Positions 8,927 through 24,064 of a stretch of DNA of 32,615 nucleotides are shown here, in pieces (within the stretch, counting starts at the first letter, position 1; every line of letters begins with the position of its first letter). The position numbers and the translations under genes are program-made. This stretch comes from Bacteroidales bacterium. GTDB lineage: Bacteria > Bacteroidota > Bacteroidia > Bacteroidales > F082. Location: the NCBI GenBank assembly GCA_017439405.1, contig JAFSJF010000155.1:1-32615 (forward strand), given 5' to 3'. Under the pieces are notes generated by a model, which was not told where the DNA came from, searched no databases, and was given only the letters and a program-made list of their open reading frames with translations.

Positions 8927-11900
8927 TCACCCCACCACGATATTCACAATCTTCTTAGGCACATAAATCACCTTGCGCACTTGCTTGCCCTCAATCCATT
9001 TGGCGGCTTCGGGGGCGGCCAGCACGGCGGCTTGCACCTCGTCGGCACCCATCGTGACGGGCAGCTCCATGTTGAAGCGCATCTTTCCGTTGAAGCTGAC
9101 AGGATAGTTGAAGCTGTTCTCCACGGTCTTCGACTCGTCGTAAACGGGGAACGTGGCATTGACCACCGAAGTGTCGTGACCCAGCAGGTGCCACAGCTCC
9201 TCGGCGATATGCGGCGCGTAAGGCGAAATCATAATGCACAGCGGCTCAAGCACTTCGCGCTTGTTGCACTTGAGGTCGGCAAGCTCGTTGACGCAAATCA
9301 TGAAGGCCGAGACGACCGTGTTGAACGAAATGCTCTCGATGCCGTCCTCTTCCTTCTTGATGAGCTTGTGCAGGCTCTTCAACTCAGGGGCGGTGGCAGG
9401 TTCGTCGCTGACGCAAAACTCGTTGTTCTCGTTGTGGTACAACCTCCAGAACTTGCGCACGAAGCGGAACGTGCCTTCGATGCCTTGCGTATCCCAAGGC
9501 TTGGACTGTTCCAAAGGCCCAAGGAACATCTCGTAGAGGCGCAGCGTGTCTGCACCGTATTTCTCCACGAGGTCGTCAGGGTTCTGCACATTGTATTTCG
9601 ACTTCGACATCTTCTCGACTTCGTTTCCACAGACGTAAATGTCGTTGCCGTCCTTGTCCTTCTCGAAGAAGAACTGCGCCTCTTTCAGGTCATCGCGCCA
9701 TTGGCGGAACTCGTCCACGTCGAGGATATCGTTGTGTACCATATTGATATCCACATGAATCGGGTCGGTGAACAACGCCCGGTCGGGCAAATTCTTGGAG
9801 GCGAACATCGCACCCGTATAAGGCTTACCCTCCACGAAAGCAGGCACTTCCTTGCCGGCGACAAGGTCTTTGATCTTTTGCTCTACCTTGTCGGTACCGT
9901 TCTGATAATCGTTCACACATTCGACAATCGGTACCAGCAGCAACTTGTAGCCCTTGCTGTCGGCATATTCTTCCCATGGCTCGGCCACTTTTTCGAGGTT
10001 GCCCATGCGGTTGATTTCGATGAGGATGCCTTTCTCGGGACAGAAGAAGTCGAAACGGCGGCGACCATCCCTGAAATCTTTGACGAACTCCACACCCAAC
10101 TTCTTGTCTTTGATGATGTCCCACACGGCTTCTTCGCACAATTTCTCCATATTGACGCGATAGGCGAAACTGGAACGGCCTTGGATCATGCCCTGGTTAA
10201 TCATACGCTGGAACGGCTCGTCCTTGCACGACAAACCAATGTCGTAGAGGAACTTGCACCAGAAGCGGCTGTAAATCAAGTGGCCGGTGGCGTGTTCGGC
10301 ACCACCGATGTAAAGATCCACGTTCTGCCAATAGTCGTTGGCTTCGCGGCTGAAGTATTCCTTGTCGTTGTGCGGGTCTTCGTAGCGGAAATAGTAACCG
10401 CTGGAACCGGCAAAGCCCGGCATGGTGTTGGTCTCGATGGGATAGCCTTCCTCCGTGACCCAGTTCTTGGCACGGGCCAAAGGCGGCTCGCCCGTCGCGG
10501 TGGGTTTGTATTCGTCGATGGCGGGCAGCTCGAGTGGCAGCTTGCTCTCGTCCATGGCGTAAGGCATGCCGTCCTTGTAGTAGATTGGGAACGGCTCGCC
10601 CCAATAGCGCTGGCGGCTGAAGATGGCATCGCGCAGGCGGTAGTTGGTCTTGCCCGTGCCCACACCGAGTTTCTCCAACTCCTCAATCATGCGCTCGATG
10701 GCTTTTTTGACCGGCAGACCGTTAAGGAAGCCTGAATTGACCAATTCGCCGTCCTTGGCATCGAAGCTCTCTTCCCATGTGGCGGGGTCGGTCAGCTCGG
10801 TGCCGGGTTTCTTCACTACTTGGATGATGGGCAGGCTGAAATGACGGGCGAAGGCGAAGTCGCGGCTGTCGTGGGCAGGCACGGCCATGATGGCACCCGT
10901 GCCGTAGCCCATCAGCACATAGTCGGCAATCCAAATCGGGAGTTTCGCACCCGTGATGGGGTTGATGCCATAGGCACCCGTGAAGGCACCGCTTACCTTG
11001 CGGACCTCGGTCATGCGCTCGCGCTCGCTGCGGTTCTTGGTGCGGGCGATGTAATCCTCCACCTCAGCGCGTTGGTCGGCAGTGGTGATTTCGCGGACCA
11101 ATTCATGCTCAGGAGCCAGCACCATGAACGTTGTGCCAAACAGCGTGTCCGCACGAGTCGTAAACACCTCAAGATCAATATCTTTACCATCCACTTTGAA
11201 AATGACGGAGGCACCCATCGACTTGCCAATCCAGTTGCGCTGCAGGTCTTTCACCGACTCGCTCCAATCGACGGTCTCCAGACCTTGAAGCAGGCGGTCG
11301 GCGTAGGCTGTGATGCGCAGCTGCCACTGCTTCATCGACTTGCGCTCCACGGGGAAGCCGCCACGCACCGAGAGGCCGTCAGCCACCTCGTCGTTGGCGA
11401 GCACCGTACCCAGTCCCGGGCACCAGTTCACCATGGCCTCGGCTTGATAGGCGAGACGATAGTTCATCAGCACCTCTTGTTGCTCCTTTTCGCTCATCGC
11501 CTTCCACTCGGCGGCGGTGAACTCCAAAGGCTTGCTTTGGGCCACATTGAGACCTTCGGTGCCTTTTTCCTCGAAGTAAGCGATGAGGTTCTTTATGGGC
11601 TGAGCCTTCTGGAAGCCGTTGCAGTAATAGGAGTTAAACAGCTGGATGAAAGTCCATTGCGTCCACTTGTAGTAGCCTGGCTCGCAGGTGCGCACCTCGC
11701 GGTCCCAGTCGTAGCAGAACCCGATCTTGTCCATCTGCTCGCGATAGCGGTTGATGTTCTTCTCGGTCGTCACGGCGGGGTGCGTGCCCGTCTGGATGGC
11801 ATATTGCTCGGCGGGCAGACCGTAGGCGTCGTAGCCCATCGGGTGCAGCACGTTGAAGCCTTTCAGACGTTTATATCTTGCATAAATATCCGATGCGATA

Positions 11901-12064
11901 TAGCCCAACGGATGCCCCACATGCAGGCCCGCGCCCGAGGGATAAGGGAACATGTCCAAGACGTAGAACTTGGGCTTCGTGTGGTCGATGTTGACCTTAT
12001 AGATTTTGTTGTCGCGCCAGTATTGCTGCCACTTTTTCTCGATTTCGTTGAAGTTGTAATCCAT
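8927..12064 (-). CDS. leuS: Leucyl-tRNA synthetase with an extra inserted domain
   Basis: A 1045-residue class I synthetase that charges tRNA-Leu. The HIGH-type motif is [16 protein letters not shown] (HVGH at 48-51), and KMSKS lies at 818-822. The CP1 editing domain is present ([20 protein letters not shown]). The C-terminal anticodon-binding region contains [18 protein letters not shown]. Bacteroidetes homologues are usually about 940-950 residues. The excess comes from roughly 105 residues inserted between YRVN (about residue 638) and [16 protein letters not shown] (residue 767), i.e. at the leucine-specific region just before KMSKS. Flanking synthetase sequence on both sides is intact and in frame. 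The start Met at 12064 ([16 protein letters not shown]) is chosen because upstream in-frame sequence is promoter-like. A terminator of the phosphatase gene and a -7 element precede it. Confidence 0.96.
9850..10150 (-). other. LeuS insertion resembling a PD-(D/E)XK (DUF559/Vsr-like) domain
   Basis: Codons for about residues 639-738 of LeuS. The segment reads as helix ([17 protein letters not shown]), strand, then [20 protein letters not shown], then a helix and [15 protein letters not shown]. This order (helix, D in RFDFF at 672, E-x-N at 683-685, GYKxLxV strand) resembles the DUF559/Vsr restriction-nuclease fold, where the second motif is normally E-x-K or E-x-D. Here the third position is Asn, so activity is doubtful. 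The resemblance is by eye only. Confidence 0.5.
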
Positions 12065-18981: not shown

Positions 18982-20634
18982 TCACTCCTTCACCACCTTG
19001 TCGGTGAACGCCTGGCCGCCCTCGAGGGTGACGCGCATCGTGTATGCGCCGGAGGCCAGGCCTTGCAGGTCGAGGCGCTCCAGGCCGTTGCGCTGCGAGC
19101 GCACGAGGCGGCCCTGAAGGTCGTATAGCTCGATTTGGGTGGGCGTCACGTCGGGCGAGTATTGCAGGTGTAGCTCGTCCTGGGCGGGGTTGGGCCAGTA
19201 GGCGTAGGGGCGGACAAAAGCCTCCATATCGGGAACGGACAGTGTGCCATCGGAGAAGAACTTGAGCATGAAAATCTCAGGATTGGAGCCATAGCGGACG
19301 GAACCGTAAATGTCCGAGTAATAGCTATAACCCGAAACAAGGCAACCTTCATCAGATGTGGTGGTGATGAAATTGGGATAATACACCTTCATGCCGTGTT
19401 CGGGATGGTACCTGTCCCAATACCGCTGCCAGATGACATTGCCGTCGATGTCCATCTTGGTCACCACAAAGCAATTCATCCAATCGTAGCCCGTGCCGTG
19501 CGGCGCGCCAACGGTATGATAGAAATAGAAGGAATCCTCGCCAACCAAATCCATGCAAGTGGCTCCTTGTATCGCCTTGATACTGTCGTTTTCAACACCC
19601 GTGTCGCCTTGCCCCGTGGCAGAATAGGAAATCAAATCGCCTTCAGGGTCGAATCTCACCATGGCGACGACTTCGTCACTCTGGAAATTGTATTGGTGAT
19701 CTATTCGTGTCATTAGCCCTGGAAAGCCAAGAACCATGGAACCATCCGGCAATGGGTCAATTGTATAAATGAATGGTCTGATGCAACTTAGGACGACTTG
19801 GTGGTAATTGCTTTGGGTATGGTCTTCGATTGTGGTGGGAACAAGCGTGGAGCTGACCAATTCCAAGTCTCTGTTGATACGGACAAGATAGGTCTGTGTC
19901 GAATATCCAGATGAGGACCCCACAAGTTTGCCATAATCTCCGCTGCCGTCCCGAAACTCGAAGAAACTTCCGCAATTGACGACAAAGGAGTCGTATTGGC
20001 CTGGGGGGTGGTTAATGGCGGCAAGCTCCCCTTCGGTGGTCAGGCGACAGAAGACCACCGACGACAGCCCCGTCACACCCAAACAGCATACAATGTCATT
20101 GCCGCTGTCCATGATGGAAGCCAGAAGAATGTTGCCTTGGTAGGGTTCGGGAAGCTCTATCTCCTTTTGCCACAATAGGTTCATGTCGTGGTCGAACTTC
20201 GCCATGAAAGGCCTGTCGTAATGAAGGACATTGTCATGCGTGAACCCAACGGCAAGACAGCATCGAACATCCTGGGGGTCCTCAAACAGCCTGTTGACCA
20301 TGAAATATCGGTCTTCATAGCCCAAAGCCAGTTCGCCGAGTATTTCCCCACCAAGGGAAACCTTGTAAACCATAGGCATGAAGGCCACGCTGTCTGATTC
20401 ATAACTTGAGGCATTCTTGCTGTCGCTTGCAGCAACGAAATAACATCCTTCCGAATCCCCGTCAGGGGCAATCTCCAGGTGGACAACCTCCACTTGCTCT
20501 TCCAAAAACACGACATGGGTGAACTCGTAAGGATACGGGTGCTCAAACAGGAAGTCGGGCTGCTGGGCCGACACGATGGAAGTGGCACCAAGGGCAAGGG
20601 CAAAGCAGACAATGATAGGATAGAAGTTTTTCAT
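18982..20634 (-). CDS. Secreted protein with T9SS sorting domain, copy 1
   Basis: A 550-residue protein with a signal peptide (MKNFYPIIVCFALALGATSIVSAQ) and a large body of repeated beta-strand units with phrases such as GDIVCCLGV, DGSMVLGF and DEGCLVSGYS, which suggest a beta-propeller-like or sensor-like extracellular fold; no enzyme motif was found. The last 75 residues are a T9SS type A sorting domain (YAYWPNPAQDELHLQYSPDV, then ELYDLQGRLVRSQRNGL, and ending TDKVVKE). T9SS exports such cargo across the outer membrane and removes or uses the domain for attachment. The start Met at 20634 begins the signal peptide. It shares its sorting domain almost exactly with the next two genes upstream, although the bodies differ. 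The substrate is not known. Confidence 0.8.
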   Translation of the reverse strand: MKNFYPIIVCFALALGATSIVSAQQPDFLFEHPYPYEFTHVVFLEEQVEVVHLEIAPDGDSEGCYFVAASDSKNASSYESDSVAFMPMVYKVSLGGEILGELALGYEDRYFMVNRLFEDPQDVRCCLAVGFTHDNVLHYDRPFMAKFDHDMNLLWQKEIELPEPYQGNILLASIMDSGNDIVCCLGVTGLSSVVFCRLTTEGELAAINHPPGQYDSFVVNCGSFFEFRDGSGDYGKLVGSSSGYSTQTYLVRINRDLELVSSTLVPTTIEDHTQSNYHQVVLSCIRPFIYTIDPLPDGSMVLGFPGLMTRIDHQYNFQSDEVVAMVRFDPEGDLISYSATGQGDTGVENDSIKAIQGATCMDLVGEDSFYFYHTVGAPHGTGYDWMNCFVVTKMDIDGNVIWQRYWDRYHPEHGMKVYYPNFITTTSDEGCLVSGYSYYSDIYGSVRYGSNPEIFMLKFFSDGTLSVPDMEAFVRPYAYWPNPAQDELHLQYSPDVTPTQIELYDLQGRLVRSQRNGLERLDLQGLASGAYTMRVTLEGGQAFTDKVVKE

Positions 20635-20669
20635 GGGTGTCAATGTTTGGTATAATTGTTCTTTAAGCG

Positions 20670-20677
20670 CAAAGATA
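20670..20677 (-). promoter_or_regulatory. -7 element for T9SS cargo copy 1
   Basis: TATCTTTG on the minus strand fits TAnnTTTG and is 36 bases upstream of the ATG at 20634. Confidence 0.5.
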
Positions 20678-20730
20678 AGGAGTTTTCCGAACACAAGAGG
20701 ATGTGTCAAAACAAAAACCACTTCTCGGGG

Positions 20731-20868
20731 GATTAAGTTGATTGTTGTTTAGTTACGGTCAAATCCGCCTTAGGCCTCGCTTGTAGGGCTGTCGCATTGC
20801 GGCAGCCGCGTCCCGTTTCCGGCGGCTGCCACGGTGTGACAGCCCTACAGCCCTACAAGCCCCCACGT
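20731..20868. repeat. 3' hairpin block, copy A
   Basis: Directly 3' of T9SS cargo copy 2. The 138-base block shares almost all bases with 22357-22486. It holds a long imperfect hairpin: TGTAGGGCTGTC (20782-20793) pairs with GACAGCCCTACA (20838-20849), and inside it GGCAGCCGC (20801-20809) pairs with GCGGCTGCC (20822-20830). Copy A has an extra AGCCCTAC duplication after the hairpin. It may act as a terminator or RNA stabiliser. Confidence 0.75.
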
Positions 20869-22335
20869 TCAGTTTTTCACCACCTTGTCCGAAAACACCT
20901 TGCCGCCCTCCAACGTGATGCGCATCGTGTAGGTGCCCGAAGACAAGCCTTGCAGATTAAGGCTCTCCAAGCCGTTGCGCTGGCTGCGCACGAGGCGGCC
21001 TTGCAGGTCGTAAAGCTCGATTTGCGTAGGCTTCACGTCAGGCGAGTATTGCAGGTGCAGCTCGTCCTGGGCAGGGTTGGGCCAGTAGGCGTAGGGGCGG
21101 ACAATGATGCCCTGCTCCTCAAGCGCGTCATAGTCGTTGTTCACGAAAAGGGCAAATACTATAGGCCTAGACGAATTGAAGCCTACCATACCCAAACCGC
21201 CATCTCCCAATATTTCCATGTGACACATGTGGTCCCATTCAACAAGGTTGAGGTAATAGTTCTGCCAGAGGATGTTCAGTTCGGAATCCAACAAGGCCAC
21301 GGAGAACCTGTTTAATCCAGATAAATCGCCATAGGCTATGTAGATGTGGCCCTCCTCTGTTTGTCTCACGTCCACGACATAAGGGCTCGCACTTCTCTTT
21401 CCTACTGATATCACATGAAACGGGAAATAAACCGTCTTCAGATTCGTATGTGTGGCCTTGTCACGCTTCGTCACCTGTACGCCTTTTTGGTGTAGAGTAC
21501 CATTAACATAGTATTTTTCAAATGGAGTGGCAAGAAGGTAGGTGCTTTCGTCCAATGCCTCAACCGTGTTTGATCCATGGTGCTTAAACCACACGTTGGG
21601 GTATTGGGGCGTATGCTCTAATGCTATCGTTTCCCTGAGGTTGAGCAACGAGTCCAGCACATAAAAAAAGCAATGCCGCGTTGAGCCTTTGTAGCCCGTG
21701 AACACATACTCTCTTGGGTTGTCTTTCCATACCTTGATCTCGCTGCTTTCCCAATAGGGGCAGACGGAGTCGGGATAGACCACCCTGTCCTTCAAGGTGC
21801 CATCCAACCCGAAGCGCTGGAAAACGTGTGAGCCGTTACCATCGCCGCTCTCCATGATGAAGCTTTCCTCCTCAAGCAAGAAATGATCCGTTCCGCCATA
21901 GACGGTGTCTGTCAGTGGGACACAGATTCCATCCTCAAAAACCAAGTCGTCATTGAAATTCCTGATTTTCATGAAGTTGCTCCCCGTTAGGGAATCATAC
22001 ACCTGGTTGATGAACAGGTAGCCTTTCTGCGAAGGATGCGGCTCTAAAAGATAGCAGTTCGTGTAATTGTCGGGCACGAAAACGGAGTCCATAATGGAAG
22101 CGTCCTCGCGGTTCAGTTTGAGGAAACAGTATCCGTGGTCTGTCGTGTAATGGCCTGCATCATCCAAGTTGAACAGCCGTGTACAAGTCAAAATGTTACC
22201 ATCTTGCAACTCCACGAAGTTCTCCATATACTGGATATACCAGCCGAAACTGTAGTCCACAAGCGAGGCGTAGCTTTGGGCCTTCGTCAAATGGCAGGCC
22301 ATTAGGATGACGAGAAAGAGTGTAATTCTTTTCAT
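20869..22335 (-). CDS. Secreted protein with T9SS sorting domain, copy 2
   Basis: A 488-residue protein. The signal peptide is MKRITLFLVILMACHLTKA, then QSYASLVDYS. The body consists of beta-strand-rich repeats without a recognised enzyme motif, with phrases such as LQDGNILTCTRLF and ILGDGGLGMVGFNSS that recur in the neighbours. The last 76 residues are the T9SS type A sorting domain (YWPNPAQDELHLQ, ELYDLQGRLVRSQRNGLESLNL, SDKVVKN). Its body resembles that of the 504-residue gene next door in layout, so the two are probably paralogues. The function is unknown; it is presumably an extracellular or surface protein. No exact -7 element was seen upstream, only TATCTTAG. Confidence 0.8.
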   Translation of the reverse strand: MKRITLFLVILMACHLTKAQSYASLVDYSFGWYIQYMENFVELQDGNILTCTRLFNLDDAGHYTTDHGYCFLKLNREDASIMDSVFVPDNYTNCYLLEPHPSQKGYLFINQVYDSLTGSNFMKIRNFNDDLVFEDGICVPLTDTVYGGTDHFLLEEESFIMESGDGNGSHVFQRFGLDGTLKDRVVYPDSVCPYWESSEIKVWKDNPREYVFTGYKGSTRHCFFYVLDSLLNLRETIALEHTPQYPNVWFKHHGSNTVEALDESTYLLATPFEKYYVNGTLHQKGVQVTKRDKATHTNLKTVYFPFHVISVGKRSASPYVVDVRQTEEGHIYIAYGDLSGLNRFSVALLDSELNILWQNYYLNLVEWDHMCHMEILGDGGLGMVGFNSSRPIVFALFVNNDYDALEEQGIIVRPYAYWPNPAQDELHLQYSPDVKPTQIELYDLQGRLVRSQRNGLESLNLQGLSSGTYTMRITLEGGKVFSDKVVKN

Positions 22336-22356
22336 GTTGCTAAGATATTGATTGAT

Positions 22357-22486
22357 GATTAAGTTGATTGTTGTTTAGTTACGGTCAGATCCACCTTAGG
22401 CCTCGCTTGTAGGGCTGTCGCATTGCGGCAGCCGCGTTGCGTTTCCAGCGGCTGCCACGGTGTGACAGCCCTACAAGACCCCACGT
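22357..22486. repeat. 3' hairpin block, copy B
   Basis: This 130-base block lies 3' of T9SS cargo copy 3 and closely matches 20731-20868. The hairpin arms are TGTAGGGCTGTC (22408-22419) and GACAGCCCTACA (22464-22475), with the same inner GC-rich stem. The block runs from GATTAAGTTG to the stop of copy 3. Confidence 0.75.
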
Positions 22487-24001
22487 TCAGTTTTTCACCA
22501 CCTTGTCCGTGAACACCTTCCCGCCCGCCAGCGTGACGCGCATCGTGTAGGTGCCCGAAGACAAGCCTTGCAGATTAAGGCTCTCCAAGCCGTTGCGCTG
22601 GCTGCGCACCATGCGCCCTTGCAGGTCGTGAAGCTCTATCTGCGTGGGCGTCACGTCCGGCGAGTATTGCAGGTGCAGCTCGTCCTGGGCGGGGTTGGGC
22701 CAGTAGGCGTAGGGGTGCATTTGTTCCATCGCCGTTTCGTTTACACCCCAGCCGTCATCGCTGACGACGAGCATGAAGATTTCGGGGCGATACCAATACC
22801 CTCCGGCCACAGCCACGCCGCCGTCGTTGAGGACGGCAAAAACCGATGCGTTGCGATAATATCCTTCTGGCTCCAAGCAGAAGCGTTGCCACTGCACATT
22901 GAAGTCTGCATCCAGCTTGACCACCGCGACTTGTCCTTTGTCTGTAAACATTAAGTTTTGCGTACTATAGGCAAAATACAAAGAGCCCTCCGCATCCTTG
23001 CCTAACCCTGTGGGGTAAGCACCATAACCCAAAGTGCCACTCGGTATCATGGGCATGGACTGGAACAATGCCACATCTTTTTCTTCAAGAGTGTGCTTGT
23101 CGTACCTGACTAAACAAACCCCATTATTCTGTGTACCTTTTTCATAACGGCTGCACAGGATGAAATCATCACCGTCAACAAGCAAACGCTCGCCCATGCC
23201 AAATTCATAGTAAAAGTTTGGTAGGGCAGAGTTTTGGGTAATGTTGAAGGAGTTTTTGAATTGGAAAAGCGAGTCGAAAACATAACCGACGAATTGGTCG
23301 TGACTATTAGCAGGGTGATTGATGCCGTACAGGCAGTATTCCAACGGCGACTCGTTGAAAACGCACATGCCACGGAAACTTCTCAATGGAAACGATGAGA
23401 ATGGCATGACGTTCTCATGCTTCAGCGTTCCATCGAGGCCGAAGCAGGCGAAGTGCAAGTCATAGTCTCCCCCGCCAATTGGGGTGAGATAGGAAAATAC
23501 AAGATCGTTACTGCTATTGATGAGATATCCCCTCTTGAAACTAAAAGCAAGGGTGTCCGACAAAAGTGTGCGCACCTCATTCAGTGTGTCGAAGCGCAAG
23601 TCGCTGTCGAAAGGGAATACCCTGATGAAACTGCTGTGGTTTATAGAGTCGCGGAAAATGCCTATGCGAAGATTGTCGTTTCCGTTGGGGGTTTTGGTGA
23701 AAAAGTAGTAGGGTGGGTCGTCGTCATAGACGAACAACGTGTCCAAAATGACAGCTCCGTGCCTTGAAACTTTGTAGTACTCATGACCAACGACATCCCC
23801 TTCGCCGCCACCGCCGAAGTTAATGCCTTCCTTGTGGACGAACAGGATGCTGCCGTCACTCATCTGAAAAGCGTTTTCCATCTGCCCGCCACCATTGGGC
23901 CCGTAATAGCCAAGGACGTGGTGCGCGATGGAGTCTAAAGTCTGGGCTGAAGCATGGCAAGCCATGAAAACAATGGCCCATGAAACGAGAATTCTTTTCA
24001 T
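22487..24001 (-). CDS. Secreted protein with T9SS sorting domain, copy 3
   Basis: A 504-residue protein starting with the signal peptide MKRILVSWAIVFMACHASAQ at 24001. The body (QMSDGSILFVHKEG, VLNDGGVAVAGGYWYRPEIF) resembles copy 2 in its order of strand repeats, so these are likely paralogues. It ends in the T9SS type A sorting domain (HPYAYWPNPAQDELHLQ, ELHDLQGRMVRSQRNGLESLNL, TDKVVKN), nearly identical to copy 2. An extra in-frame Met upstream (24055) lies in an intergenic hairpin and is rejected. The function is unknown. Confidence 0.8.
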   Translation of the reverse strand: MKRILVSWAIVFMACHASAQTLDSIAHHVLGYYGPNGGGQMENAFQMSDGSILFVHKEGINFGGGGEGDVVGHEYYKVSRHGAVILDTLFVYDDDPPYYFFTKTPNGNDNLRIGIFRDSINHSSFIRVFPFDSDLRFDTLNEVRTLLSDTLAFSFKRGYLINSSNDLVFSYLTPIGGGDYDLHFACFGLDGTLKHENVMPFSSFPLRSFRGMCVFNESPLEYCLYGINHPANSHDQFVGYVFDSLFQFKNSFNITQNSALPNFYYEFGMGERLLVDGDDFILCSRYEKGTQNNGVCLVRYDKHTLEEKDVALFQSMPMIPSGTLGYGAYPTGLGKDAEGSLYFAYSTQNLMFTDKGQVAVVKLDADFNVQWQRFCLEPEGYYRNASVFAVLNDGGVAVAGGYWYRPEIFMLVVSDDGWGVNETAMEQMHPYAYWPNPAQDELHLQYSPDVTPTQIELHDLQGRMVRSQRNGLESLNLQGLSSGTYTMRVTLAGGKVFTDKVVKN

Positions 24002-24024
24002 GCTACACTTAGTCTTGATAGGAA

Positions 24025-24064
24025 AGGCATTCCATGTGGCTATGAAACGCCGCATGGAATGCCT
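24025..24064 (-). terminator. Stem-loop between the lipoprotein gene and T9SS cargo copy 3
   Basis: A perfect 12-bp stem AGGCATTCCATG/CATGGAATGCCT, extended by GGC/GCC, lies 10 bases beyond the stop of the lipoprotein gene on the minus strand. Only three T follow it, so termination is possible but not strong. Confidence 0.5.

Follow-up and report, generated by a model that had tools for sequence, protein, structure and literature searches.

The leucyl-tRNA synthetase (LeuRS) gene on contig JAFSJF010000155.1 of an uncultured gut Bacteroidales bacterium, a stretch of 32,615 nucleotides referred to below as the window, carries about 105 extra in-frame residues within the hairpin ahead of the KMSKS motif, a position that we call site A. 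The extra block is probably the fossil of a non-spliced selfish DUF559 element that entered LeuRS once and is now a constrained but dispensable appendage. It has the look of selfish-gene remains because it is an old nuclease-family domain, is lost in some close relatives, and has intact cousins inside other essential enzymes.

The identity of the gene was established from its translation and from family profiles. HIGH and KMSKS motifs, an editing domain and an equivalog score (TIGR00396, 948 bits) are all present, as in a bacterial LeuRS, and the gene is the single LeuRS-length match in the 3.5 Mb genome, where four other matches span 85-95 query residues. The features of the gene are as follows.

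8927..12064 (coding 8930-12064), minus strand: leuS, leucyl-tRNA synthetase, 1045 residues plus stop (translation; TIGR00396)
11912..11923, minus strand: HVGH (HIGH motif), residues 48-51, from the translation, invariant in 27 LeuRS
10676..11239, minus strand: LeuRS editing domain, residues 276-463 (PF13603, 221 bits)
10154..10174, minus strand: first strand of the insert-holding hairpin, SSFAYRV, residues 631-637, found with and without the insert
9830..10153, minus strand: DUF559-derived insert at site A, residues ~638-745, matched by DUF559 profiles and absent in 11/49 same-genus frames
9614..9808, minus strand: second strand and remaining pre-KMSKS region, residues 753-817, retained, and aligned in insert-bearing and insert-less LeuRS
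9599..9613, minus strand: KMSKS motif, residues 818-822, from the translation, with 818-821 invariant in 27 LeuRS

A preliminary description of this DNA had reported a LeuS about 100 residues longer than usual, with an in-frame extra block and intact synthetase on either side. These points were borne out, since insert-less LeuRS of the same genus measure 935-956 residues and the HVGH motif, editing domain and KMSKS motif flank the block; RRRFDFF (668-674), ILIEINR (680-686) and GYKLLLVP (705-712) also lie where that description had put them. The interval it gave, 9770-10150, corresponds to LeuRS residues 639-765, while the inserted domain proper covers residues ~638-745. When aligned with the solved LeuRS 9tjv_A, presumably that of E. 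coli, the block maps to a turn (GENGERN in the alignment) ahead of the remaining leucine-specific region. One structural account describes this region as shifting between the editing and the aminoacylation state, as a buttress for the KMSKS loop and as a guide that brings tRNA to the catalytic site, and AgnB2 as being without a leucine-specific domain (PMC5059758). Its absence in AgnB2 marks the region as variable, and we infer that a region able to withstand loss also withstands gain. Elsewhere in the window (18982-24055), three consecutive minus-strand proteins each end in a Por_Secre_tail sorting domain.

Searched alone, the window insert matched no family in Pfam (E up to 10) or NCBIfam. 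Inserts from eight relatives were compared with Pfam DUF559 (PF04480, curated cut-off 20.6 bits): five scored above the cut-off (23.4, 24.7, 28.5, 29.8 and 46.2 bits) and the remaining three below it (16.4, 19.6 and 13.0 bits). We then constructed profile A2 from 20 diverse site A inserts and profile A3 from 14 intact DUF559 domains, the latter with no LeuRS site A rows. Profile-profile alignment of A2 with A3 by hhalign gave a probability of 98.6% and an E-value of 1.3e-15 (for that single comparison). A2 matched the solved endonuclease-like protein 3HRL, itself a member of DUF559 (E 1.9e-7), and A3 found the window insert itself at 9872-10147 (E 5.9e-6). On the strength of the PF04480, 3HRL and intact-DUF559 matches, the insert is established at the sequence level as a diverged DUF559 domain, a relative within the Vsr/PD-(D/E)XK superfamily, and the preliminary assignment to a DUF559/Vsr-type PD-(D/E)XK fold holds at that level. 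What that description had missed is the wider context, namely the DUF559 copies that lie in frame inside other large enzymes (see below). A3 also matched the mobile intron protein 3R3P (E 2.2e-6), presumably I-Bth0305I, a Vsr-like homing endonuclease, whereas A2 had no match to 3R3P at E up to 10; the insert also differs from that system in having no intron and no splicing, and its mobility is only putative. EDxHD is a named group of homing endonucleases (PMC6083498).

Active-site positions were read from a joint alignment of the 20 diverse site A inserts with the 14 DUF559 domains, in the residue numbering of A3, and from a wider alignment of 166 site A inserts (90 distinct), each taken in only if the A2 profile found it at E 1e-5. 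The most decayed insert (L135, G243) is too diverged and stands outside the residue counts, the column ranking and the domain tree.

10133..10135, minus strand: Glu644, the invariant DUF559 Glu (E21 of A3), in 20/20 site A inserts, 14/14 DUF559 domains and 90/90 distinct inserts
10049..10051, minus strand: Asp672, the invariant DUF559 Asp (D49 of A3), in 20/20 site A and 89/90 distinct inserts
10016..10018, minus strand: Glu683, the invariant DUF559 Glu (E60 of A3), in 19/20 site A inserts with one Asp, and 87 Glu with 3 Asp among 90 distinct inserts
10010..10012, minus strand: Asn685, third motif position, Asp in 14/14 DUF559 domains and Lys in 15/20 diverse site A inserts
9998..10000, minus strand: Asn689, at the invariant DUF559 His position, His in 14/14 DUF559 domains and 0/20 site A inserts

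With clusters down-weighted, E644, D672 and E683 rank 2, 8 and 10 of 119 columns in conservation, and position 685, which among the 90 distinct inserts is Asn in 53, Lys in 33, Arg in 2 and Ser in 2, ranks 46. In one lineage (L117/L136) Asp672 has become Thr. Homology with DUF559 and 3HRL runs over ~93 columns, with Glu, Trp, Asp, Phe and Glu common to both sides; unlike them, site A is embedded in LeuRS and is without the Gln, Asp, His, Asp and Arg invariants, so that DUF559 Q40, D62, H66, D75, R78 and R91 are retained in 1, 0, 0, 0, 0 and 0 of the 20 inserts. What we take to be the Vsr-like His/Asp catalytic pair is absent, the His being replaced in the window by Asn689 and the Asp by Glu698, and either residue is retained in 0/20. 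The choice of which DUF559 residues to regard as catalytic was guided by an account of Vsr (PMC11879112). Because the His and its partner invariants are gone in all 20 diverse inserts, the domain is unlikely to cleave in the usual DUF559 manner, and because the remaining polar invariants are kept in 0 to 1 of 20 we do not class site A as a working DUF559 nuclease. The preliminary description had reached the same conclusion from Asn685; the conclusion is likely to be right, but that reason is a weak one, since the position is variable and often Lys in relatives. That the three acids were kept points to a metal or nucleic-acid site of continuing importance in most lineages, or else to a structural role for these residues.

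To place the insertion in a phylogenetic context, we examined samples of increasing breadth. Searches of 60 genomes of the genus yielded 49 same-genus LeuRS frames, some of them partial (incomplete genes were ignored in presence/absence counts); the block is present in 38 and missing from 11, and is thus not a product of chance or of assembly error. The insert was found in 7 of 16 genera of the window's family (173 genomes) and, across the order sample, in 18 of 247 genomes with 13 family codes, a count made up of 17 profile matches from the first position and G243, whose diverged insert is spanned by a whole-protein match. Within the phylum sample (296 genomes) the window alone matches from profile position 1, among the matches listed. 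When one peptide pattern was run against a single genome from each of 84,980 species, 139 relatives came back; of the 80 that were kept, 77 bear the label Bacteroidales, Bacteroidia or Bacteroidetes, and the other three are 'bacterium F082' (L215), Candidatus Limimorpha equi (L246) and a contig (L191, NZ_JAFSNZ010000003.1) under the label Methanobrevibacter. The LeuRS on this last contig is of Bacteroidales type, and the label is probably a binning error.

Trees of the domain and of its host were then compared. In the domain tree, built with a choice of 28 from the 88 extracted inserts, all 28 fall on one side of a branch from the other 25 DUF559 rows, of which one is a duplicate, with support of 100/99 and recovery in 100% of 200 bootstrap trees, consistent with one origin for site A if the root lies among the other DUF559 rows. 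On the host tree, built from LeuRS without the insert columns and using 55 of 119 long frames, the insert trait needs 13 changes, at least nine of them forced by starred branches; rows L144 and L111, scored empty, aligned uncleanly. Insert-less families have a bare hairpin at site A. Within the genus, however, empty sites bear remnants: L047/L048 retain KFKDYFAGKEIPF/KYKEYFANKEMPF, in our reading the two ends of the insert, and in L039-L046 VTGQKV is left, apparently a part of it. Some absences therefore look like losses. Moreover, in the LeuRS tree L037, which has the insert, has as its sister row L048, which is empty. The patchy distribution is best described as one gain in Bacteroidales followed by losses or transfers, and the other absences could be transfers. 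As separate observations, genomes without the LeuRS insert were smaller (2.36 versus 3.02 Mb, completeness-corrected; 11 versus 34 genomes), a comparison given no weight because its rows are phylogenetically non-independent and four partial-gene genomes were excluded; and at G021:C11:174421-174573 a fragment resembling LeuRS residues 992-1043 (67%, one stop) lies ~1.3 kb past an intact leuS.

The only other DUF559 match in the window genome also resides in a synthetase, a valyl-tRNA synthetase (ValRS) of 1056 residues (G000:C80:49741-50037; L084, L152). This copy lies in frame in the editing domain with the DUF559 invariants in place, and its host passes NCBIfam valS. In 11 same-genus ValRS a 24-residue loop takes the same place (15 loci are given, of which the motif search missed 4), and across the 60 genus genomes the ValRS insert occurs in G000 and G012 only, among the matches listed. 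Its ends are hairpins, CTCCCCC AGA GGGGGAG and CCTCCCC TCG GGGGAGG. Spread as repeats within the window genome was considered and rejected: the sole exact hairpin match is at the ValRS element, and three others have three mismatches each.

Similar copies were found well beyond the window genome. The order sample contained 13 DUF559 matches outside site A in frames longer than 300 residues, hosted by the LeuRS editing domain (seven times, one of them in G248, which also has site A), ValRS, IleRS, HsdM, an aminotransferase, a DNA methyltransferase and a GNAT protein. From the phylum sample we examined 20 of at least 32 long frames, the window genome's own ValRS apart; their hosts are the LeuRS editing domain (3), a third LeuRS site (2), RecG (4), MetH (2), HsdR (5), IcmF (1) and proteins to which we gave no host name (3). 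Nine hosts were checked against NCBIfam, where IleRS, RecG, MetH, IcmF, HsdR, ValRS and LeuRS pass their cut-offs and HsdM and the aminotransferase fall below; host names other than those seven, including the DNA methyltransferase and GNAT, are our reading of conserved sequence. Within LeuRS, ten genomes from several families have a DUF559 insert in the editing domain, which we call site B (L105-L111, L278, L282, L293), the 1201-residue LeuRS of L109 holds both site A and site B inserts, and the third site (L281, L294) lies between PPLARA.. and the YELTTMPGW segment. The RecG copies (L284, L285, L286, L289) share one common site in three genera; the RecG of G703 is filled, the 25 other sampled genomes of its genus are empty, and G500, of the same genus and from outside the sample, is also filled. 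This occupancy is suggestive of mobility into empty alleles, for young copies only. Further in-frame copies occur in MetH (L283, L295), HsdR (L277, L279, L280, L288, L291; close in place, judged by eye), IcmF (L296) and IleRS (L112). In seven genomes of the window's genus, DUF559 also stands at the C-terminus of what we read as a GNAT-like protein, joined by a palindrome-derived linker (L086-L092).

GC-rich hairpins accompany the DUF559 copies, fused and free-standing together. They were detected in the right flank of 23/23 and the left flank of 9/23, compared with 30/423 random stretches from the same loci, although the 23 copies are not independent, as seven belong to one close-knit GNAT fusion. 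At site A, hairpin ends were found on the left of 2/79 and the right of 1/79 loci, and on neither side in the window. An origin of site A from a hairpin-ended element is therefore an analogy with these younger copies.

Does the insert serve its host? Over 28 disjoint pairs, sum dN/sum dS was 0.141 for the insert, 0.031 for residues 1-625 and 0.053 for residues 770-1045; over 313 pairs the values were 0.092, 0.034 and 0.053, the insert values being overestimates, as pairs with saturated dS still add dN. The insert is thus under purifying selection, weaker than that on the rest of LeuRS. Bulk positive charge, looked for as a sign of tRNA binding, is absent: net charge is near zero, with a mean of +0.3 over 28 inserts and -3 in the window. 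These results bear on the proposal of the preliminary description that the host recruited the nuclease fold as a module, kept without cleavage for binding tRNA-Leu or for tuning the swing of the leucine-specific domain. Purifying selection and the conserved acidic triad speak for such a module, as does its position beside a domain described in PMC5059758 as tRNA-guiding and KMSKS-loop-buttressing. The proposal also keeps real weight because of FASTKD4, a Vsr-like protein believed to have adapted to RNA while having no nuclease activity (PMC11879112). We nevertheless judge recruitment rather unlikely, since charge is near zero, the genus has lost the domain repeatedly and keeps remnants at empty sites, and the dN/dS of the insert is ~3-5x that of LeuRS residues 1-625; tRNA binding as such is possible but unsupported. 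A working metal-dependent nuclease, in which E644, D672 and E683, with Lys685 in many lineages, form a PD-(D/E)XK site acting on DNA (homing) or on tRNA, would account for the near-invariant triad and for Lys at the third motif in 33/90 distinct and 15/20 diverse inserts. Weakly in its favour, a diverged insert between close flanks was seen in 2 of 2211 LeuRS pairs and in none for eight control segments, as might follow if closely related LeuRS genes had swapped the insert; the opposite case, an alike segment between diverged flanks, occurred 0 times for the insert and 4 and 1 times in two control segments. We consider continued nuclease function improbable, given that His66, Asp62, Asp75 and Arg78 of DUF559 are gone in 20/20, that the window has Asn at 685 and that Asp672 is replaced by Thr in one lineage. 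In the two pairs concerned (L186/L223 and L194/L212), synonymous divergence peaks over LeuRS residues 640-745 between close flanks, as if the insert had been exchanged as a unit; this is a lead only, as synonymous divergence is higher in the insert generally.

Two further accounts concern the history of the block. Its patchiness could stem from horizontal transfer of whole insert-bearing LeuRS genes in place of one gain and many losses, which would fit both the 13 changes on the host tree and the presence of the insert in 18/247 order genomes. The remnant-bearing empty sites point to loss for at least some absences, and the sister relationship of L037 and L048 points the same way, so that we regard transfer as the less probable account. 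That the block is an ordinary variant of the leucine-specific domain with no nuclease kinship is, by comparison, almost certainly wrong. It does lie in the leucine-specific region and is lineage-wide in part of Bacteroidales, but DUF559 matches were reached by four routes and the usual hairpin-to-KMSKS sequence follows the insert; an unrelated variant was rejected on the DUF559 homology.

We therefore return to the selfish-element fossil as the favoured reading. Its likely source would be selfish DUF559 units with hairpin ends that settle, unspliced and in frame, at conserved positions of large housekeeping proteins, the ValRS copy of the window genome being one of them. A single in-frame entry into LeuRS, in an ancestor inside Bacteroidales, would have placed such a unit in a permissive surface hairpin where the leucine-specific region begins, ahead of KMSKS, and the gene would have survived because LeuRS tolerates an insert at that hairpin. 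In-frame, unspliced residence in an essential gene may shield the unit from imprecise deletion. The hairpin ends, the His-based chemistry and the other DUF559 invariants would then have decayed, the fold presumably persisting by structural constraint, perhaps with weak use of the acidic site, while some lineages deleted it; its present role may be neutral or minor. The near-invariant acidic triad and a dN/dS far below 1 hint against a purely passive remnant, and the 13 host-tree changes could stem from LeuRS gene transfer in addition to loss.

Insertions of a comparable kind are known from Rickettsia, where palindromic elements of ~150 bp form in-frame palindromic insertions in many protein genes, according to PMC10969869. 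DUF559 units resemble them in being in frame, unspliced, palindromic and located in unrelated metabolic proteins; they differ in holding a nuclease-family domain between the hairpins, and site A differs in being without hairpins. Likewise, the site A insert occupies the same pre-KMSKS region as the bacterial leucine-specific domain (as described in PMC5059758), but it is extra, non-homologous and nuclease-derived. We would rate the in-frame selfish insertion as the known kind, and a nuclease-family domain retained in a synthetase as what is new. The preliminary description knew of no earlier report of such an insertion, and literature searches, whose coverage left out subscription journals and most preprints, agree: none joined DUF559 with leucyl-tRNA synthetase, none on nuclease-like or in-frame insertions in synthetases or Bacteroidetes was found beyond unrelated papers, and, by titles and abstract starts, neither papers naming DUF559 nor those on the leucine-specific domain mention one in LeuRS.

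A broader reading, which we offer tentatively and hold to be doubtful, is that Bacteroidota harbour an intein-like, non-splicing class of selfish elements, hairpin-ended DUF559 units homing in frame into conserved positions of essential enzymes, namely LeuRS (at several sites), ValRS, IleRS, RecG, MetH, IcmF and HsdR. Site A would be its oldest, domesticated member, and a copy with Glu-Asp-Glu-Lys intact may still be active on nucleic acid that the synthetase binds. The insertion connects an essential synthetase with a lineage of seemingly selfish nucleases, and provides a natural series of young intact copies, an old retained copy and remnant-bearing absences for studying how mobile domains join housekeeping enzymes. 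DUF559, a poorly studied family, gains a testable biology, that of unspliced in-frame insertion at conserved sites of large proteins. For LeuRS, close relatives with and without the insert form natural pairs with which to probe the tolerance of the pre-KMSKS region.
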